Shown: positions 29,712-60,548 of the stretch, in pieces
How positions within the stretch are numbered: the first letter of the stretch is position 1
Layout: each line of letters begins with the position of its first letter
From: Calothrix sp. HK-06
GTDB lineage: Bacteria > Cyanobacteriota > Cyanobacteriia > Cyanobacteriales > Nostocaceae
Length of the DNA: 64,000 bases
Assembly (NCBI RefSeq): GCF_001904745.1
Contig: NZ_MRCD01000029.1
Location: forward strand, 1 to 64,000
Direction of reading: 5' to 3'
Notes under the pieces: generated by a model
Seen by the model: the letters and a program-made list of their open reading frames with translations, nothing else
The model's database searches: none
Told to the model about the DNA's origin: nothing
Translations under genes and position numbers: made by a program

Positions 29712-31226
29712 CTATTTTAAACATCTTATTGCTTCTAGTAGTCCGCGTGCTTTATTTAGGGTTTCTTCGTATTCTTTTTCGGGTTCCGAGTCTGCCACCA
29801 AACCGGCGCCTGCTTGTACACTAACTTTACCTGCGCGCGCTACCATTGTACGGATGGCTATGGCTGTATTTAATTGTCCTTCAAAGTCGTAGTATCCATA
29901 TACACCTGAGTATACTCCTCGGCGTGATGGTTCTAGTTCGTTGATTATTTCCATTGCTCGAATTTTTGGCGCCCCACTTACTGTTCCTGCGGGAAAGCAA
30001 GCTTTCATTAAGTCCCATGCTGTTTTTGATGGCGCCAGTTTACCTATTACGTTACTGACGATGTGCATTACATGAGAGTATCGCTCGATAACCATTAGTT
30101 CATCTACGCATACGCTGCCACTTTCACATGCTCGACCTAAGTCGTTTCTGCCTAGGTCTACTAACATGACGTGTTCGGCAATTTCTTTGGGGTCTTGTAA
30201 TAAGTCTTTTGCTAGTGCGTCGTCTTCTTTTGGAGTTTTACCGCGTTTTCTTGTGCCTGCTATTGGACGCAATGTTGCTATATTGTTACCGTCAGCGTCT
30301 TTTTCGGCTTTTACCATGACTTCTGGACTGGAGCCTATTATTTGCCAGTCTTGAAAGTTAAAGTACGCCATGTATGGTGATGGGTTAATTTGACGTAGTG
30401 AGCGGTAAAGTGAAAAGGGGTCTCCGCTATATTCGGTTGTTAGACGTTGGGAAATTACTACTTGAAATATATCGCCTGCTTTGATATATTCTTTGGCTTT
30501 TTCGACGCTGTGACAAAATTCTTCTTTACTAAAGTTACTTTGATATTCTTCGGTTTCGTTTGAACGAGGCGCAAGAGTTGCAGGTGGTGTCCATTCTAAA
30601 ATAGTTTTGGCTGGCTGAAGCGGTGATGATAATTTATTCACCATTTGCGTAACACATTCTACAGCTTTGTTGTACGCTTCCTTAACATCACTATTACGTA
30701 AATCTGCATATGCTATTACCCAAATTTTACGTTTAACTTGGTCAAATATGAGTAAATTGTCTACCTGCATCCACAATCCATCAGGTATATTACGCTCATC
30801 TTGAGTATGAACTGGCACTCGCGGTTCTATCCACTTGATTAATTCATAACCCCAAAATCCAAATAAACCACCTATTCCCGGTGGTAACTCTGGTAACTTA
30901 ACTGGATGATATGGCGCCAAACAGTTTGCTAATGCTTCAAATGGGTCGCCATCGAATACTACTTGTGAAGCGTCACGATGCGTTTGCGTTGTTTGTTCTC
31001 CACGCGCTTCTAATACCCATAAAGGATTACAACCAAGTAAACTATAACGTCCGACTTTCTCACCACCTTCGACTGATTCCAACAAAAAACTATAAGGTTG
31101 TCCAGCACATACCTTATACCAAGCTGAAACAGGCGTATCTAGGTCTGCAACCCACTCTTGATATACCGGAACAAAATTACCAAGATTAGCTAATTCAGTA
31201 AATTGCGAGAAGTCGGGAAAAATCAT
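29712..31226 (-). CDS. trpE: Anthranilate synthase component I
   Basis: A 504-residue chorismate-using enzyme making anthranilate, first step of tryptophan synthesis. Motifs: LLESVEGGEKVGRYSLLG in the N-terminal feedback region, FSKEEFCHSVEKAKEYIKAGDIFQVVISQR, SPEVMVK, PIAGTRKRGKT, HVMLVDLGRNDLGR, CFPAGTVSGAPKIRAMEII and the AGAGLVADSEPEKE end. The tryptophan-binding LLES-type element is present, so feedback inhibition is likely. It lies 96 nt downstream of psaD on the same strand, a linkage I recall from other cyanobacteria; co-transcription is possible. Confidence 0.93.
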   Translation of the reverse strand: MIFPDFSQFTELANLGNFVPVYQEWVADLDTPVSAWYKVCAGQPYSFLLESVEGGEKVGRYSLLGCNPLWVLEARGEQTTQTHRDASQVVFDGDPFEALANCLAPYHPVKLPELPPGIGGLFGFWGYELIKWIEPRVPVHTQDERNIPDGLWMQVDNLLIFDQVKRKIWVIAYADLRNSDVKEAYNKAVECVTQMVNKLSSPLQPAKTILEWTPPATLAPRSNETEEYQSNFSKEEFCHSVEKAKEYIKAGDIFQVVISQRLTTEYSGDPFSLYRSLRQINPSPYMAYFNFQDWQIIGSSPEVMVKAEKDADGNNIATLRPIAGTRKRGKTPKEDDALAKDLLQDPKEIAEHVMLVDLGRNDLGRACESGSVCVDELMVIERYSHVMHIVSNVIGKLAPSKTAWDLMKACFPAGTVSGAPKIRAMEIINELEPSRRGVYSGVYGYYDFEGQLNTAIAIRTMVARAGKVSVQAGAGLVADSEPEKEYEETLNKARGLLEAIRCLK

Positions 31227-49410: not shown

Positions 49411-49899
49411 CTACCGAATCAGCAAACGCTCGCGTATCGCTCGCAAATAAGCTCGAATCGGTACTTGATATATCTCAATGAACAACCATAAAATGATTGT
49501 AAAGTGTGATATAAAAGTCAACGCAGTCCAAATATAAGGTACCCAGCTTAACGGAGCCTCTGGCGATGGGGGGAAATTGTAAGCAACGATACCTATTAGT
49601 CCTGTTGGTAAAAATATAAAGGCAAGTGCTGCAAAAACATAACCCCAGCCAAATTCAACTCCTTCTAGTTGAGCTTCTGTCCAATTGAAACCATTCCAAC
49701 GCCAAACTAAAGGAGGTTGTCGCGAAGGCATTTTTAGTTGCTGTTGTTCTATATTAACAGTGAAGATTTGCTGACAAAAATCACAAGACATTGCCTCCAT
49801 CATGGGCATATGAGTAATTTTACCCACACGACAAACCGGACAGGGATAAGCACCGTGATAGTTAAATGATGTTGATAAAAGTTTGGAACTGGGCTTCAT
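49411..49899 (-). CDS. Zinc-ribbon membrane protein, function unknown
   Basis: A 162-residue protein with an N-terminal zinc ribbon (PCPVCRVGK ... MSCDFCQQIF, two CxxC pairs), a Trp-rich linker (PPLVWRWNGFNWTE) and two membrane spans (WGYVFAALAFIFLPTGLIGIVAY and PYIWTALTFISHFTIILWLFIEIY), ending in a basic cytoplasmic tail. Conserved-looking but not recognised as a named family. Divergent from the attenuator-controlled DAHP synthase region. Confidence 0.7.
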   Translation of the reverse strand: MKPSSKLLSTSFNYHGAYPCPVCRVGKITHMPMMEAMSCDFCQQIFTVNIEQQQLKMPSRQPPLVWRWNGFNWTEAQLEGVEFGWGYVFAALAFIFLPTGLIGIVAYNFPPSPEAPLSWVPYIWTALTFISHFTIILWLFIEIYQVPIRAYLRAIRERLLIR

Positions 49900-50095: not shown

Positions 50096-50124
50096 TTGAC
50101 TTTGCTGTGATACCCTGTTAAACT
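50096..50124 (+). promoter_or_regulatory. Putative sigma-70-type promoter of the DAHP synthase leader
   Basis: TTGACT, 17-bp spacer, TAAACT (5/6 and 4/6 matches to the consensus). A start near 50131 would give a leader of about 330 nt that contains both terminator-like structures and the leader ORF. Position is inference from consensus only. Confidence 0.4.
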
Positions 50125-50208
50125 GTAAAGGATAGGATTATTATAAGTTTTTCCAGCAATCTAATCAATGATACATACAACTAGCTATTTTTATTTTTGG
50201 CGTCGGGT

Positions 50209-50290
50209 GGTTCACTGGGAGTGAATTATGTTTCCACATGGAAATCACCCAGTGAACCGCAGACTACATGTTCTGCGGTTTTTGTTTTTT
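50209..50290 (+). promoter_or_regulatory. First structured element in the leader: long hairpin overlapping an intrinsic terminator
   Basis: GGTTCACTGGG (50209-50219) pairs with CCCAGTGAACC (50248-50258), with TTTCCA/TGGAAA inside. The 3' arm overlaps ACCGCAGA (50256-50263), which pairs with TCTGCGGT (50272-50279) followed by a T-rich run (TTTTTGTTTTTT). The two stems share three bases, so they could compete or stack. It may be a small RNA ending in its own terminator, or a first attenuator upstream of the leader-peptide attenuator. Confidence 0.55.
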
Positions 50291-50313
50291 GTACTTCTAT
50301 TAATTTATTCGTC

Positions 50314-50379
50314 ATGGCATACCTTACAAGCTGGTTTTACGGATTTTATTTTTGGTTCGGATATCCTCCGGAGCAATAG
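50314..50379 (+). CDS. Aromatic-rich leader peptide of a transcription attenuator
   Basis: A 21-codon ORF (ATG 50314, TAG 50377) with ten aromatic residues: Y3, W7, F8, Y9, F11, Y12, F13, W14, F15, Y17, i.e. four Phe, four Tyr and two Trp. It ends PPEQ. No clear ribosome binding site, as in many cyanobacterial genes. Codons 15-17 (TTC GGA TAT) can pair with TCCG in the Pro codons, and the Pro/Glu codons CTCCGG can instead pair with CCGGAG of the downstream terminator. Followed 25 nt later by that terminator and 85 nt later by DAHP synthase, the first enzyme of aromatic synthesis. Chance occurrence of such composition exactly here is very unlikely. Confidence 0.82.
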   Translation: MAYLTSWFYGFYFWFGYPPEQ

Positions 50380-50434
50380 GCGCGTCATGACGACAAACTT
50401 TTGCCCGGAGTATTAACACTCCGGGTTTTTTTTT
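50366..50434 (+). terminator. Attenuator: antiterminator segment and intrinsic terminator before DAHP synthase
   Basis: CCCGGAGT (50404-50411) and ACTCCGGG (50418-50425) form an 8-bp GC-rich stem with a 6-nt loop, then nine T (50426-50434), 30 nt before the DAHP synthase ATG. CTCCGG (50366-50371), inside the last codons of the leader peptide, is complementary to CCGGAG in the left arm, giving a mutually exclusive antiterminator. Ribosome stalling at the aromatic codons would leave CTCCGG free and prevent termination; a ribosome at the stop codon would cover it and allow termination. Confidence 0.82.
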
Positions 50435-50463
50435 ACTTTCACACATATAAACAACATCTAGCA

Positions 50464-51339
50464 ATGAATAACGCTAAACTCGCAGCTAAATCAAACCAAG
50501 AACAATCTTTAGTCCAAATCTCTGATAATGTTACCTTCGGCGCCGAAGAAATAATTATTATTGGTGGCCCCTGTGCGGTAGAAAGTTACGAACAAATGGA
50601 AACCGTAGCAGAAAAACTCCATAATTCCCCTGTAAAAGCATTACGTGGTGGAGTTTTCAAACCCCGCACATCTCCTTACGCATTCCAAGGTATGGGTGAA
50701 ACTGGGTTGAAAGTATTAGCAGAAGTAAGAGACAAATATAATCTACCTGTAGTTACAGAAGTAATGGCGATTTCACAAATCGAAGTCATAGCTGCTCATG
50801 CTGATATGCTGCAAGTAGGCAGTCGCAACATGCAAAACTTCGATTTACTCAAAGAACTTGGACGTGCAGGTAAACCAATTCTACTTAAACGCGGTTTAGC
50901 TGCCACAATTGAAGAGTTTGTAATGGCAGCAGAATATATTTTAAGTCACGGCAATTCTGATGTAGTATTGTGCGAACGTGGTATTCGCAGTTTCGATAAC
51001 TATACTCGTAACGTATTAGACTTAGGCGCCGTAGCAGCACTCAAACAAATAACACATCTACCAGTTATCGTAGACCCATCACATGCTGCTGGCAGACGCG
51101 AACTAATAACACCATTATCGCGTGCCGCAATTGCATGTGGCGCCGATGGATTAATAATAGAGTGTCATCCAGTTCCAGAAAAATCTGTTTCCGATGCACA
51201 ACAAGCACTGTCTTTAGAAGAAATGATTGATTTAGTTCACACATTAGTACCAGTTGCCTTCTCTGTCGGACGCAATATATCAACAAACAACGTAGGGGTG
51301 GGTTATAAAAAATCCACCCCTTTTCAATTAGTAGCTTAA
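50464..51339 (+). CDS. aroF: DAHP synthase, single-domain type I-beta
   Basis: 291 residues from the ATG at 50464. Condenses phosphoenolpyruvate and erythrose 4-phosphate to DAHP, opening the shikimate pathway. Family signatures: IIIGGPCAVESYEQM (metal-binding Cys), LRGGVFKPRTSPYAFQGMG, VTEVM, LQVGSRNMQNF, ILLKRGLAATIEEF, LCERGIRSF, VIVDPSHAAG and IIECHPVPEKSVSDAQQAL. Unlike the second DAHP synthase in this window it has no N-terminal ACT-like regulatory domain, so allosteric feedback is not expected; control appears to lie in the upstream attenuator. Its stop overlaps that of the convergent gene. Confidence 0.93.
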   Translation: MNNAKLAAKSNQEQSLVQISDNVTFGAEEIIIIGGPCAVESYEQMETVAEKLHNSPVKALRGGVFKPRTSPYAFQGMGETGLKVLAEVRDKYNLPVVTEVMAISQIEVIAAHADMLQVGSRNMQNFDLLKELGRAGKPILLKRGLAATIEEFVMAAEYILSHGNSDVVLCERGIRSFDNYTRNVLDLGAVAALKQITHLPVIVDPSHAAGRRELITPLSRAAIACGADGLIIECHPVPEKSVSDAQQALSLEEMIDLVHTLVPVAFSVGRNISTNNVGVGYKKSTPFQLVA

Positions 51340-51779
51340 CTAGCTGCTTTTTCTACTGCTGCAATTACATCATCTAAAGCTCTACCTGCTTCTTTGATTA
51401 ATTCGTCTGCTTCTGCATCAGACTCAGCATTGACCGCAGCTTGTACTGATGCAAGCGCGCGGTTCATTGCTTTGGCGCCTTCAGGAACACCAGCTTTTTC
51501 TAATAAACTTGCTGATTCTTCCATTGCTGCTAATGCTGTGTCAAAATGCAGTTGCACTTGTTGTGTACTTTTGGCAGATTGGGCTGCGAGCATTGCGTTT
51601 GCTGCTCTTTCTAATGCATTGCCTGCTTTGTAAAGTGCTTCTTGGTCGATAGCTTGCGCTAGTAGTGTTGAGGTTGGTGAAGATGGTGTTTTATTAACGT
51701 TAGTGCTAGCTGTTGCTGGAAATATGGTAAGCATTAAACCTGCGACTACAATGTTTGATAAAATAATTTTACGTAGCAT
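51336..51779 (-). CDS. Exported helical protein of unknown function
   Basis: A 147-residue protein with a signal peptide (MLRKIILSNIVVAGLMLTIFPATAS) and a mature part of Ala-rich helices (YKAGNALERAANAMLAAQSA, HFDTALAAMEESASLLEKAG, EADELIKEAGRALDDVIAAVEKA). No cysteines or known motif. Periplasmic or secreted location is expected. The stop codon overlaps the DAHP synthase stop from the opposite strand within TTAA. Confidence 0.7.
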   Translation of the reverse strand: MLRKIILSNIVVAGLMLTIFPATASTNVNKTPSSPTSTLLAQAIDQEALYKAGNALERAANAMLAAQSAKSTQQVQLHFDTALAAMEESASLLEKAGVPEGAKAMNRALASVQAAVNAESDAEADELIKEAGRALDDVIAAVEKAAS

Positions 51780-59456: not shown

Positions 59457-60548
59457 TTATGCGAAAACCCGATTTTTTAGGGTTGTAACACGGGGTATAT
59501 AATTTGTAAAAGATTGACCACGACCAAAAAATTGAGCAACCGATTTGATCTCGTGCATTAATTCAATATAATCATTTGGTGTCAAAGACTGAGGACCATC
59601 GCACAAAGCAACTGAAGGATTTGGATGAACTTCTATCATTAAAGAATCTGTTCCAACAGCCACCGAAGCTTTAGCCATTGTTGCTACATACTGTGAGTAA
59701 CCAGTAGCATGACTTGGGTCAATCATAATTGGCAAATGTGTCAGTGTACGCAATACAGGTACAACAGATAAATCAAGCGTATTTCTGGTATATTGACGGT
59801 CAAAGCTACGAATACCGCGTTCACACAAAATTACATTTGGATTATCAGCAGCCATTATATATTCAGCTGCCATCAACCATTCTTCTATAGTCGCAGATAG
59901 ACCTCGCTTCAGTAAAATTGGTTTACCAGTGGCGCCAGCTTTCTTAAGTAAAGAGAAATTTTGCATATTGCGGGCGCCGATTTGAATAATATCAGCAACA
60001 GCAGCCACTGCATCAATATCGCTAGTATCCATTAATTCTGTAATAATCCCTAAACCTGTAACTTCCTTTGCTTTAGCCAACAATCCGAGAGCGCTTTCTC
60101 CATGCCCTTGAAAAGCATAAGGAGAGGTGCGAGGTTTAAAAGCTCCTCCTCGAAGAAATTGGGCGCCAGATGCTTTAACTACCTGCGCTGTTTCAATAAT
60201 CATTTCTTCATTTTCAACCGAACAAGGCCCAGCCACAACAACAAGCGGATGATTTTGCCCGAAACTGACGACTCCTAATGGTGTTGATACATCTACACTA
60301 GATGGCTCACCGTGACGGAAATCAATCGACGCGCGCTTAAAAGGATGCTTAACTCGAATCACCTGTTCAATACTTGGACTAATTTGTTGGATATTATCGG
60401 GATTAATTGAACTTGTCCCACCAACCAAACCAATTACAGTTTTGTATTTACCTACAGATTTCTCAATCGTTACAGAATACTGACTAAGTTCTCCTATAAT
60501 TCGTTCAACTTCAGATGCAGGCGTTGCACTTCCAATTACAATAATCAT
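59457..60548 (-). CDS. aroF: DAHP synthase with N-terminal regulatory domain
   Basis: A 363-residue type I-beta enzyme. Residues 1-70 form a ferredoxin-like/ACT-type domain (MIIVIGSATPASEVERIIGEL, YKTVIGLVGGTS) used for feedback by aromatic amino acids in related enzymes, then a linker with FKRASIDFRHGEPSSV. The barrel shows VVVAGPCSVENEEM, LRGGAFKPRTSPYAFQGHG, IQIGARNMQNF, ILLKRGLSATIEEW, LCERGIRSF, IMIDPSHATG and MIEVHPNPSVALCDG. It is a paralogue of the enzyme at 50.5 kb. AGAGG precedes the ATG. No terminator-like leader is evident upstream. Confidence 0.93.
   Translation of the reverse strand: MIIVIGSATPASEVERIIGELSQYSVTIEKSVGKYKTVIGLVGGTSSINPDNIQQISPSIEQVIRVKHPFKRASIDFRHGEPSSVDVSTPLGVVSFGQNHPLVVVAGPCSVENEEMIIETAQVVKASGAQFLRGGAFKPRTSPYAFQGHGESALGLLAKAKEVTGLGIITELMDTSDIDAVAAVADIIQIGARNMQNFSLLKKAGATGKPILLKRGLSATIEEWLMAAEYIMAADNPNVILCERGIRSFDRQYTRNTLDLSVVPVLRTLTHLPIMIDPSHATGYSQYVATMAKASVAVGTDSLMIEVHPNPSVALCDGPQSLTPNDYIELMHEIKSVAQFFGRGQSFTNYIPRVTTLKNRVFA

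Follow-up and report, generated by a model that had tools for sequence, protein, structure and literature searches.

The window analysed here, a 64,000-nucleotide stretch of Calothrix sp. HK-06 DNA, carries on its plus strand a gene for a type I DAHP synthase (291 aa, 50464-51339) that matches both PF00793 and TIGR01361, the latter at 365.8 bits against a cut-off of 267.75, in agreement with the identification made in an earlier sequence-only reading of this DNA. As the enzyme catalyses the first step of the shikimate pathway, the gene is of the kind that an aromatic attenuator would regulate. The flanking open reading frames (ORFs; 49411-49899 and 51336-51779) both lie on the minus strand, so that the DAHP synthase gene is probably transcribed alone. 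Upstream of it, direct reading identifies a short plus-strand ORF (leader 2, MAYLTSWFYGFYFWFGYPPEQ, 21 aa, 50314-50379) containing 4 Phe, 4 Tyr and 2 Trp within its 21 codons, nine of these aromatics falling at codons 7-17 and the run Phe-Tyr-Phe-Trp-Phe occupying codons 11-15; the codon counts and positions previously given are exact, as are those for the terminator that follows and for its distance from the gene. This terminator (terminator 2, GCCCGGAGT-ATTAAC-ACTCCGGGT plus a U-run, 50403-50434, plus strand), found by a terminator scan and with a folding z of -5.5, has a stem of 9 pairs, one of them G-U, at 50403-50426 and a U-run reaching 50434, 30 nt before the DAHP synthase ATG (50464). 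Two further pairings are available on the same strand: CTCCGG near the leader end (50366-50371) is complementary, as had been pointed out, to CCGGAG of the terminator (50405-50410), giving antiterminator 2 (50366-50410), which is identified by covariation in relatives and has six contiguous pairs in the window versus a 12-pair consensus helix in the relatives; and CGTCATG over the start codon (50310-50316) can pair with CATGACG past the stop codon (50386-50392) in a leader-closing helix (50310-50392), recognised by comparing pairing within and between species.

Whilst this arrangement, hereafter module 2, is real, the single attenuator originally described proves to be only half of the system, since a second attenuator lies upstream at 50168-50290. 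This module 1 (50168 to about 50290) is a unit of the same design on the plus strand, comprising leader 1 (MIHTTSYFYFWRRVVHWE, 18 aa, stop UGA, 50168-50224), read directly and present in relatives; antiterminator 1 (50209-50258), a covarying 11-pair helix between GGTTCACTGGG within the leader (50209-50219) and CCCAGTGAACC (50248-50258), the latter overlapping the terminator 5' arm; and terminator 1 (GAACCGCAG...CTGCGGTTT with a T-rich tail, 50254-50290), found by the terminator scan and kept in relatives. As the upstream neighbour (49411-49899) is on the minus strand, terminator 1 probably does not close off an earlier gene on the plus strand. A consensus scan, together with the relatives, identifies a promoter-like site on the plus strand at 50096-50124 (TTGACT, 17 nt, TGT-TAAACT, i.e. 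an extended -10), whose -10 end lies 43 nt from the leader 1 start codon. In a 6-kb scan this site scores 9/12, with TG preceding the -10, and sites of this kind are not above chance there (16 versus 14.6). A promoter-like sequence upstream of leader 1 is nevertheless conserved in the relatives: the best upstream site contains TTGAC in 52 of 58 loci, its mean score is 10.2 versus 7.9 in resampled sequence, and scores of at least 9 occur in 52 of 58 loci versus 20% of resampled sequences, with a score that favours TTGAC in both.

Conservation of an aromatic ORF in relatives, the lack of which the sequence-only reading had named as refuting it, was assessed in 195 genomes of the order, 63 of which (the window's own included) have an ortholog at E <= 1e-110; the upstream DNA of all 63 was read for leaders, and the own-genome paralogs (L002-L005) were excluded from all counts. 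Leader 2 is present at 62 of the 63 loci (e.g. MTTSLFSWFYGFYFWPRNSSG, L023), leader 1 at 58 (e.g. MFSSSYYFYFWFKAVHRR, L006) and at least one at all 63; 57 have both, and thus two complete ORF-plus-terminator switches in one leader. The motif finder missed leader 2 in L038 and L049 and leader 1 in L047 and L061, and chose another start in L030; these were set by hand. Five loci (L024, L029, L056, L059, L066) have leader 2 without leader 1, and the module 1 covariance model finds no match in any of the five; one (L058) has leader 1 without leader 2, the module 2 model giving there a weak cross-match on module 1 (17.5 bits). A terminator follows leader 1 at 58/58 loci and leader 2 at 60/62 by script, the other two being recognised by eye. 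A script that searched 450 nt for short ORFs dense in aromatic codons with a terminator behind them found the pair upstream of 62/63 orthologs versus 0/630 Markov-resampled sequences, 0/63 reverse strands and 0/280 window tiles; the aromatic ORF alone was found at 63/63 orthologs versus 26/630, 2/63 and 5/280, respectively. Some loci depart from the general pattern: in L047 and L061 (leader 1) and L055 (leader 2) the ORF stops soon past the aromatic run, before the antiterminator part, with the RNA elements kept; L066, with module 2 only, has a 259-nt spacer before the gene that contains a repeated unit holding GCGATCGC-type palindromes; and the search tool counts a single in-frame TGA in the DAHP synthase of L012 (genome G111).

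The leader peptides vary in length (13-21 aa for leader 1, 17-23 aa for leader 2), and all three aromatic amino acids occur in 57/58 leader 1 and 62/62 leader 2 peptides. Among pairs that match in length and diverge by no more than 45%, single-difference codons of leader 2 are synonymous at a rate of 0.47 in frame versus 0.14 and 0.26 in the other frames; the same test was negative for leader 1 (0.23 in frame versus 0.33 and 0.43). In 58/58 loci the leader 1 ATG and a V-H element are separated by a multiple of three nucleotides, in four different lengths, a constancy of frame that is partly built in, the finder having required the motif in frame so that only L047 and L061 are independent. In pairwise comparison of the aromatic cores (59 of the 62 leader 2 loci, three being off pattern, and identical cores counted once), 873/1247 codon changes in leader 1 and 1360/2004 in leader 2 are synonymous or aromatic-to-aromatic, 645/1247 and 741/2004 being aromatic-to-aromatic, shares that are partly built in because cores were picked by their aromatic pattern; in the leader 1 core the second codon positions vary most. 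At the level of sequence, then, both leaders read as short ORFs rich in codons of the amino acids to be regulated, the coding pattern being clear for leader 2.

These substitutions bear on the possibility that the leaders encode arrest peptides, whose nascent aromatic chain, perhaps together with a free aromatic amino acid, would stall the ribosome from within the exit tunnel in the manner of TnaC. The YFYFW and WFYGFYFW cores are indeed well conserved, but F, Y and W interchange at many core positions (a pattern partly built in by the selection of cores), extra W codons appear, F codons go missing and peptide length varies. Given the aromatic swaps, the varying W and F codons and the variable length, codon counting fits better than a fixed arrest motif, and we consider arrest peptides improbable.

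Pairing between leader end and terminator was examined in alignments of 58 module 1 sequences (A1) and 62 module 2 sequences (A2). For antiterminator 1, 91.8% of cells are paired, falling to 23-51% when the partner is slid by 1-3 columns, and 45 cells carry two-sided changes versus 12.7 in shuffles that ignore kinship (reached in 0/500); the number of pairs with two-sided changes is not above shuffles (6 versus 4.8, 87/500). For antiterminator 2, 88.6% of cells are paired (17-55% with the partner slid by 1-3 columns), with 41 two-sided-change cells versus 19.1 and 8/12 pairs with two-sided changes versus a mean of 4.3 (0/500), again in shuffles that ignore kinship. Each leader end also pairs more stably with its own terminator arm than with that of another locus (-22.1 versus -19.0 kcal/mol for antiterminator 1, -17.1 versus -15.9 kcal/mol for antiterminator 2, each with 0/2000 permutations), in a test that excluded loci whose start region contains GATCG and so kept 57 of 58 for module 1 and 52 of 62 for module 2. 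The terminators themselves are paired in 99.6% (terminator 1) and 90.9% (terminator 2) of cells. An RNAalifold consensus returns the terminators and small local helices and lacks the antiterminators, because these exclude the terminators. Conserved leaders together with covarying leader-end:terminator pairing uphold the attenuator interpretation first made from the window.

The remaining helices differ in their support. The sequence-only reading had placed a 1:2-type hairpin inside leader 2. The window sequence makes this plausible, but the corresponding helix of the relatives has only 3 consensus pairs and almost no covariation; a local TTCAC/GTGAA hairpin considered as a protector in module 1 was rejected, covariation for it being absent in relatives. 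The leader-closing helix of module 2, by contrast with both other-species and shuffled partners, is favoured in its own sequence (means of -14.5 versus -10.4 and -7.7 kcal/mol, respectively); own beats other species in 50/62 loci, and 0/2000 permutations reach the own value in the 52 loci retained. Because this helix encloses the leader end and antiterminator 2 extends beyond it, the two would cross and should compete. Its module 1 counterpart is at most weak, own beating other species in 31/58 loci, with means of -9.84 versus -8.53 that beat every permutation. That the module 2 helix covers its own start codon would also suit control at translation or by Rho, in which the hairpins and the leader-closing helix act on ribosome access. 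Such control appears scarcely credible, however, as the hairpins are followed by U-runs and the second hairpin sometimes lies far from the ribosome site of the gene: the distance from its end to the protein match is 34-65 nt in most loci, but 73-87 nt in L010, L012, L041 and L064, 113-114 nt in L024 and L029, 149 nt in L006 and 259 nt in L066.

Covariance models of module 2 (R1) and module 1 (R2) were run on 388 genomes of the class, with the stricter filters of a large search, under which weak matches are lost. At E <= 0.001 they match 132 (module 2) and 144 (module 1) genomes, at one place in each, representing 72 and 74, respectively, of the 160 genera in the class sample; comparative evidence with covariation for attenuation in cyanobacteria therefore extends over these genera. 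Where both models match (127 genomes), their hits share a strand and are separated by 130-306 nt, with a median of 157. A protein search of the same 388 genomes gave 148 matches at E <= 1e-90, of which five at 55-57% identity were set apart, leaving 143 orthologs at 63% or more; at least one module precedes all 143, with module 1 at 139, module 2 at 128 and both, hence two complete switches, at 124, versus 0/5 of the distant paralogs. Modules are also matched in 6 of the 245 genomes lacking an ortholog at E <= 1e-90. In two of these (G296, G429) the first part of the gene is present and cut by the contig end, and in a third (G313) the contig ends about 20 nt past the terminator. G094 (L156) retains module 1 through its terminator, followed by a broken DAHP synthase fragment, and G463 (L159), read by eye, retains interrupted remains of both leaders and the gene's first codons, then another gene, its sole remaining DAHP synthase match being at 48%; in both, leader and DAHP synthase gene seem to have been lost together. 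The sixth (G502) is a weak match (E 5e-4) within coding sequence. Run on the genome of the window itself, the module 2 model finds a single strong hit, followed by seven more at E 0.1-0.9. A named set of the best 80 relatives, mostly Nostocales and overlapping the class sample, has both modules in 77, the contigs of the other three beginning 47-102 nt upstream of the gene; in this set the window's DAHP synthase is 96% identical over the best segment to those of Calothrix sp. FI2-JRJ7, PCC 7103 and PCC 7716 and of Dulcicalothrix desertica PCC 7102. Plasmid sequences yielded nothing beyond distant matches, in five records. In the class sample the modules are linked to this DAHP synthase gene only.

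This linkage also weighs on the proposal that the leaders are functional small proteins or small RNAs, merely ended by the terminators, with the gene expressed through unregulated readthrough. Two conserved terminators would indeed release two short RNAs with defined ends, and the peptides are conserved; yet both leader ends covary with terminator arms, which a plain terminator would not need, strong matches in the class sample occur only at this gene or its remnants, and the two genomes that lost the gene also have, by eye, a broken-up leader. We therefore think it improbable that the leaders serve a small product.

The attenuated enzyme matches only PF00793 among DAHP synthase domains, and a domain scan found in it no N-terminal ferredoxin-like domain, the domain that carries feedback inhibition in other type I DAHP synthases. 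A second DAHP synthase gene in the window (59457-60548, minus strand, 363 aa), about 8 kb away, has both PF00793 and the ferredoxin-like PF18152. As this domain was not found in the attenuated enzyme, regulation in RNA may stand in for the missing allostery. The window's genome has five DAHP synthase matches, and 16 chosen ortholog-bearing genomes have one to four PF00793 genes each (E <= 1e-20), with class II DAHP synthase in 0/17 when the window's genome is added to these; in G401, which is 95% complete, the attenuated gene is the sole DAHP synthase found. An ORF search upstream of the four other DAHP synthases of the window's genome found only weaker aromatic ORFs, at three of the four, the best ORFs at the four genes having 4/11, 7/28, 6/27 and 5/28 aromatic residues, and upstream of five chorismate-binding and two prephenate dehydratase genes of the same genome it found at most 4 aromatics per nine residues. 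The window itself holds a chorismate-binding (TrpE/PabB-like) gene near 29751-30527 (minus strand, 504 aa from the first possible start), with no aromatic leader found upstream.

Folding calculations were used to ask how ribosome position could select between the alternative structures. At equilibrium, terminator 1 has a mean value of 0.38 in free RNA, 0.58 with a stalled ribosome and 0.82 with the ribosome at the stop codon, the stop value exceeding the stalled one in 51/58 loci and by more than 0.3 in 28; for terminator 2 the corresponding means are 0.95, 0.89 and 0.97, the terminator prevailing in every ribosome state and the difference exceeding 0.3 in only 6/62. Equilibrium folding, separating the states partly for module 1 and failing to do so for module 2, was dropped as a test of the switch; since terminator 2 wins at equilibrium in every state, antiterminator 2 would have to form first, during transcription. 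Having seen this result we adopted nascent folding, in which the RNA made before the terminator 3' arm is folded with the stretch beneath a ribosome masked, the ribosome being placed on each aromatic codon in turn or on the stop codon. In this model the antiterminator is allowed with a stalled ribosome and blocked with a ribosome at the stop codon in 58/58 (module 1) and 62/62 (module 2) loci. With a 10-nt downstream mask, stalled ribosomes leave on average 0.59 of the terminator 5' arm in module 1, and 0.65 in module 2, paired to the leader end, against shares of 0.04 and 0.01 for ribosomes at the stop codon and of 0.64 and 0.40 in ribosome-free RNA; a 13-nt mask gives stalled/stop values of 0.51/0.05 and 0.67/0.01. 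The low pairing at the stop codon is largely geometry, as the mask covers the leader end, and the informative part of the model is that stalls leave the leader end free, which is then predicted to pair. For the window, predicted shares depend on the codon of stalling: in leader 1 they are 0.91 at Tyr7-Tyr9, 0.64 at Phe10, 0.49 at Trp11 and 0.02 at Trp17, and in leader 2 0.90 at Tyr3, 0.88 at Trp7, 0.18-0.51 at Phe8-Phe15 and 0.0 at Tyr17, with 0.01 in the free RNA. Taken with the covariation, the modelling indicates antiterminators that depend on ribosome position and that are mutually exclusive with the terminators.

We consider it very likely, from these sequence comparisons, that two ribosome-mediated transcription attenuators in series control the single DAHP synthase gene. 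In the mechanism we envisage, one promoter upstream of leader 1 would give a leader RNA of roughly 330 nt, in each module of which a ribosome would translate a short peptide dense in Phe, Tyr and Trp. With charged aromatic tRNA plentiful, the ribosome would reach the stop codon and cover the ORF end, so that the terminator forms and transcription stops; were any aromatic tRNA short, it would stall earlier and the free ORF end would pair with the terminator 5' arm, allowing readthrough. Judged by their codon content, both leaders may sense the charging of all three aromatic tRNAs. With two gates to get through, the polymerase should read into the gene with a probability close to the product of those of the single gates, which would be expected to keep basal expression low and to make the response to a shortage of aromatics steep. 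The leader-closing helix, which crosses the antiterminator, would shut module 2 when no ribosome is on the leader, so that this gate would be closed by default. A more elaborate version is possible, although we hold it with rather less than even confidence: gate 1 would be open by default when untranslated and gate 2 shut by its helix, so that expression would need both translation and uncharged aromatic tRNAs, with the RNA perhaps replacing feedback inhibition. If this version is true, cyanobacteria would have in this switch with two default states their first described case of ribosome-mediated amino-acid attenuation, and two RNA families would be new. The proposals could be tested directly in Chlorogloeopsis fritschii PCC 6912, Fischerella thermalis PCC 7521 and Calothrix sp. 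PCC 7103; they touch on the control of carbon flow into aromatic amino acids in photosynthetic cells, and may offer a natural two-stage sensor for engineering aromatic production.

In a scan with Rfam 15, T-box included, neither the window nor eight relatives gave a match at the gathering score, the best sub-threshold match reaching 21.5 of 49.5 bits. T-box leaders sense the charging of their cognate tRNA and switch a terminator, as proposed here, but they bind the tRNA directly, without a leader ORF. As for attenuation in cyanobacteria, the relevant passage of a 2016 comparative paper reports no reliable data (PMC4833913), cyanobacteria are absent from the term-searched text of PMC2965389 and PMC10219788, and there was no example of such an attenuator among the matches listed in open-licence PMC full texts. 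The mechanism is thus a known one, found undocumented in cyanobacteria, and occurring here as a tandem of two different RNAs that carry the same amino acids. Attenuators are described at trpL, pheL and pheST of Escherichia coli (PMC11802643). In attenuators of that kind, too, ribosome position on a leader peptide picks terminator or antiterminator; those systems, however, are single attenuators for one amino acid each, whereas in the tandem it is the end of the leader that pairs directly with the terminator arm, and a helix from the start codon to beyond the stop codon is added in module 2. In the passages that describe it (PMC3641672), the mgtCBR leader of Salmonella likewise combines two short ORFs, mgtM and mgtP, with two attenuator-like switches in tandem, but these respond to separate signals, ATP and proline, whereas both leaders here carry the same three aromatics. 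The closest single-attenuator analogue appears to be the aroR leader upstream of aroF in Corynebacterium glutamicum, compared by its published description, which places an aromatic leader peptide with the run Phe-Tyr-Phe before a DAHP synthase gene under ribosome-mediated attenuation and, in the passages concerned, reports a response to Phe and not to Tyr, with no mention of Trp (PMC11802643, PMC4046766). As there described, aroR is one leader in an actinobacterium; the cyanobacterial gene has two different leaders in series, most of them containing all three aromatic amino acids.
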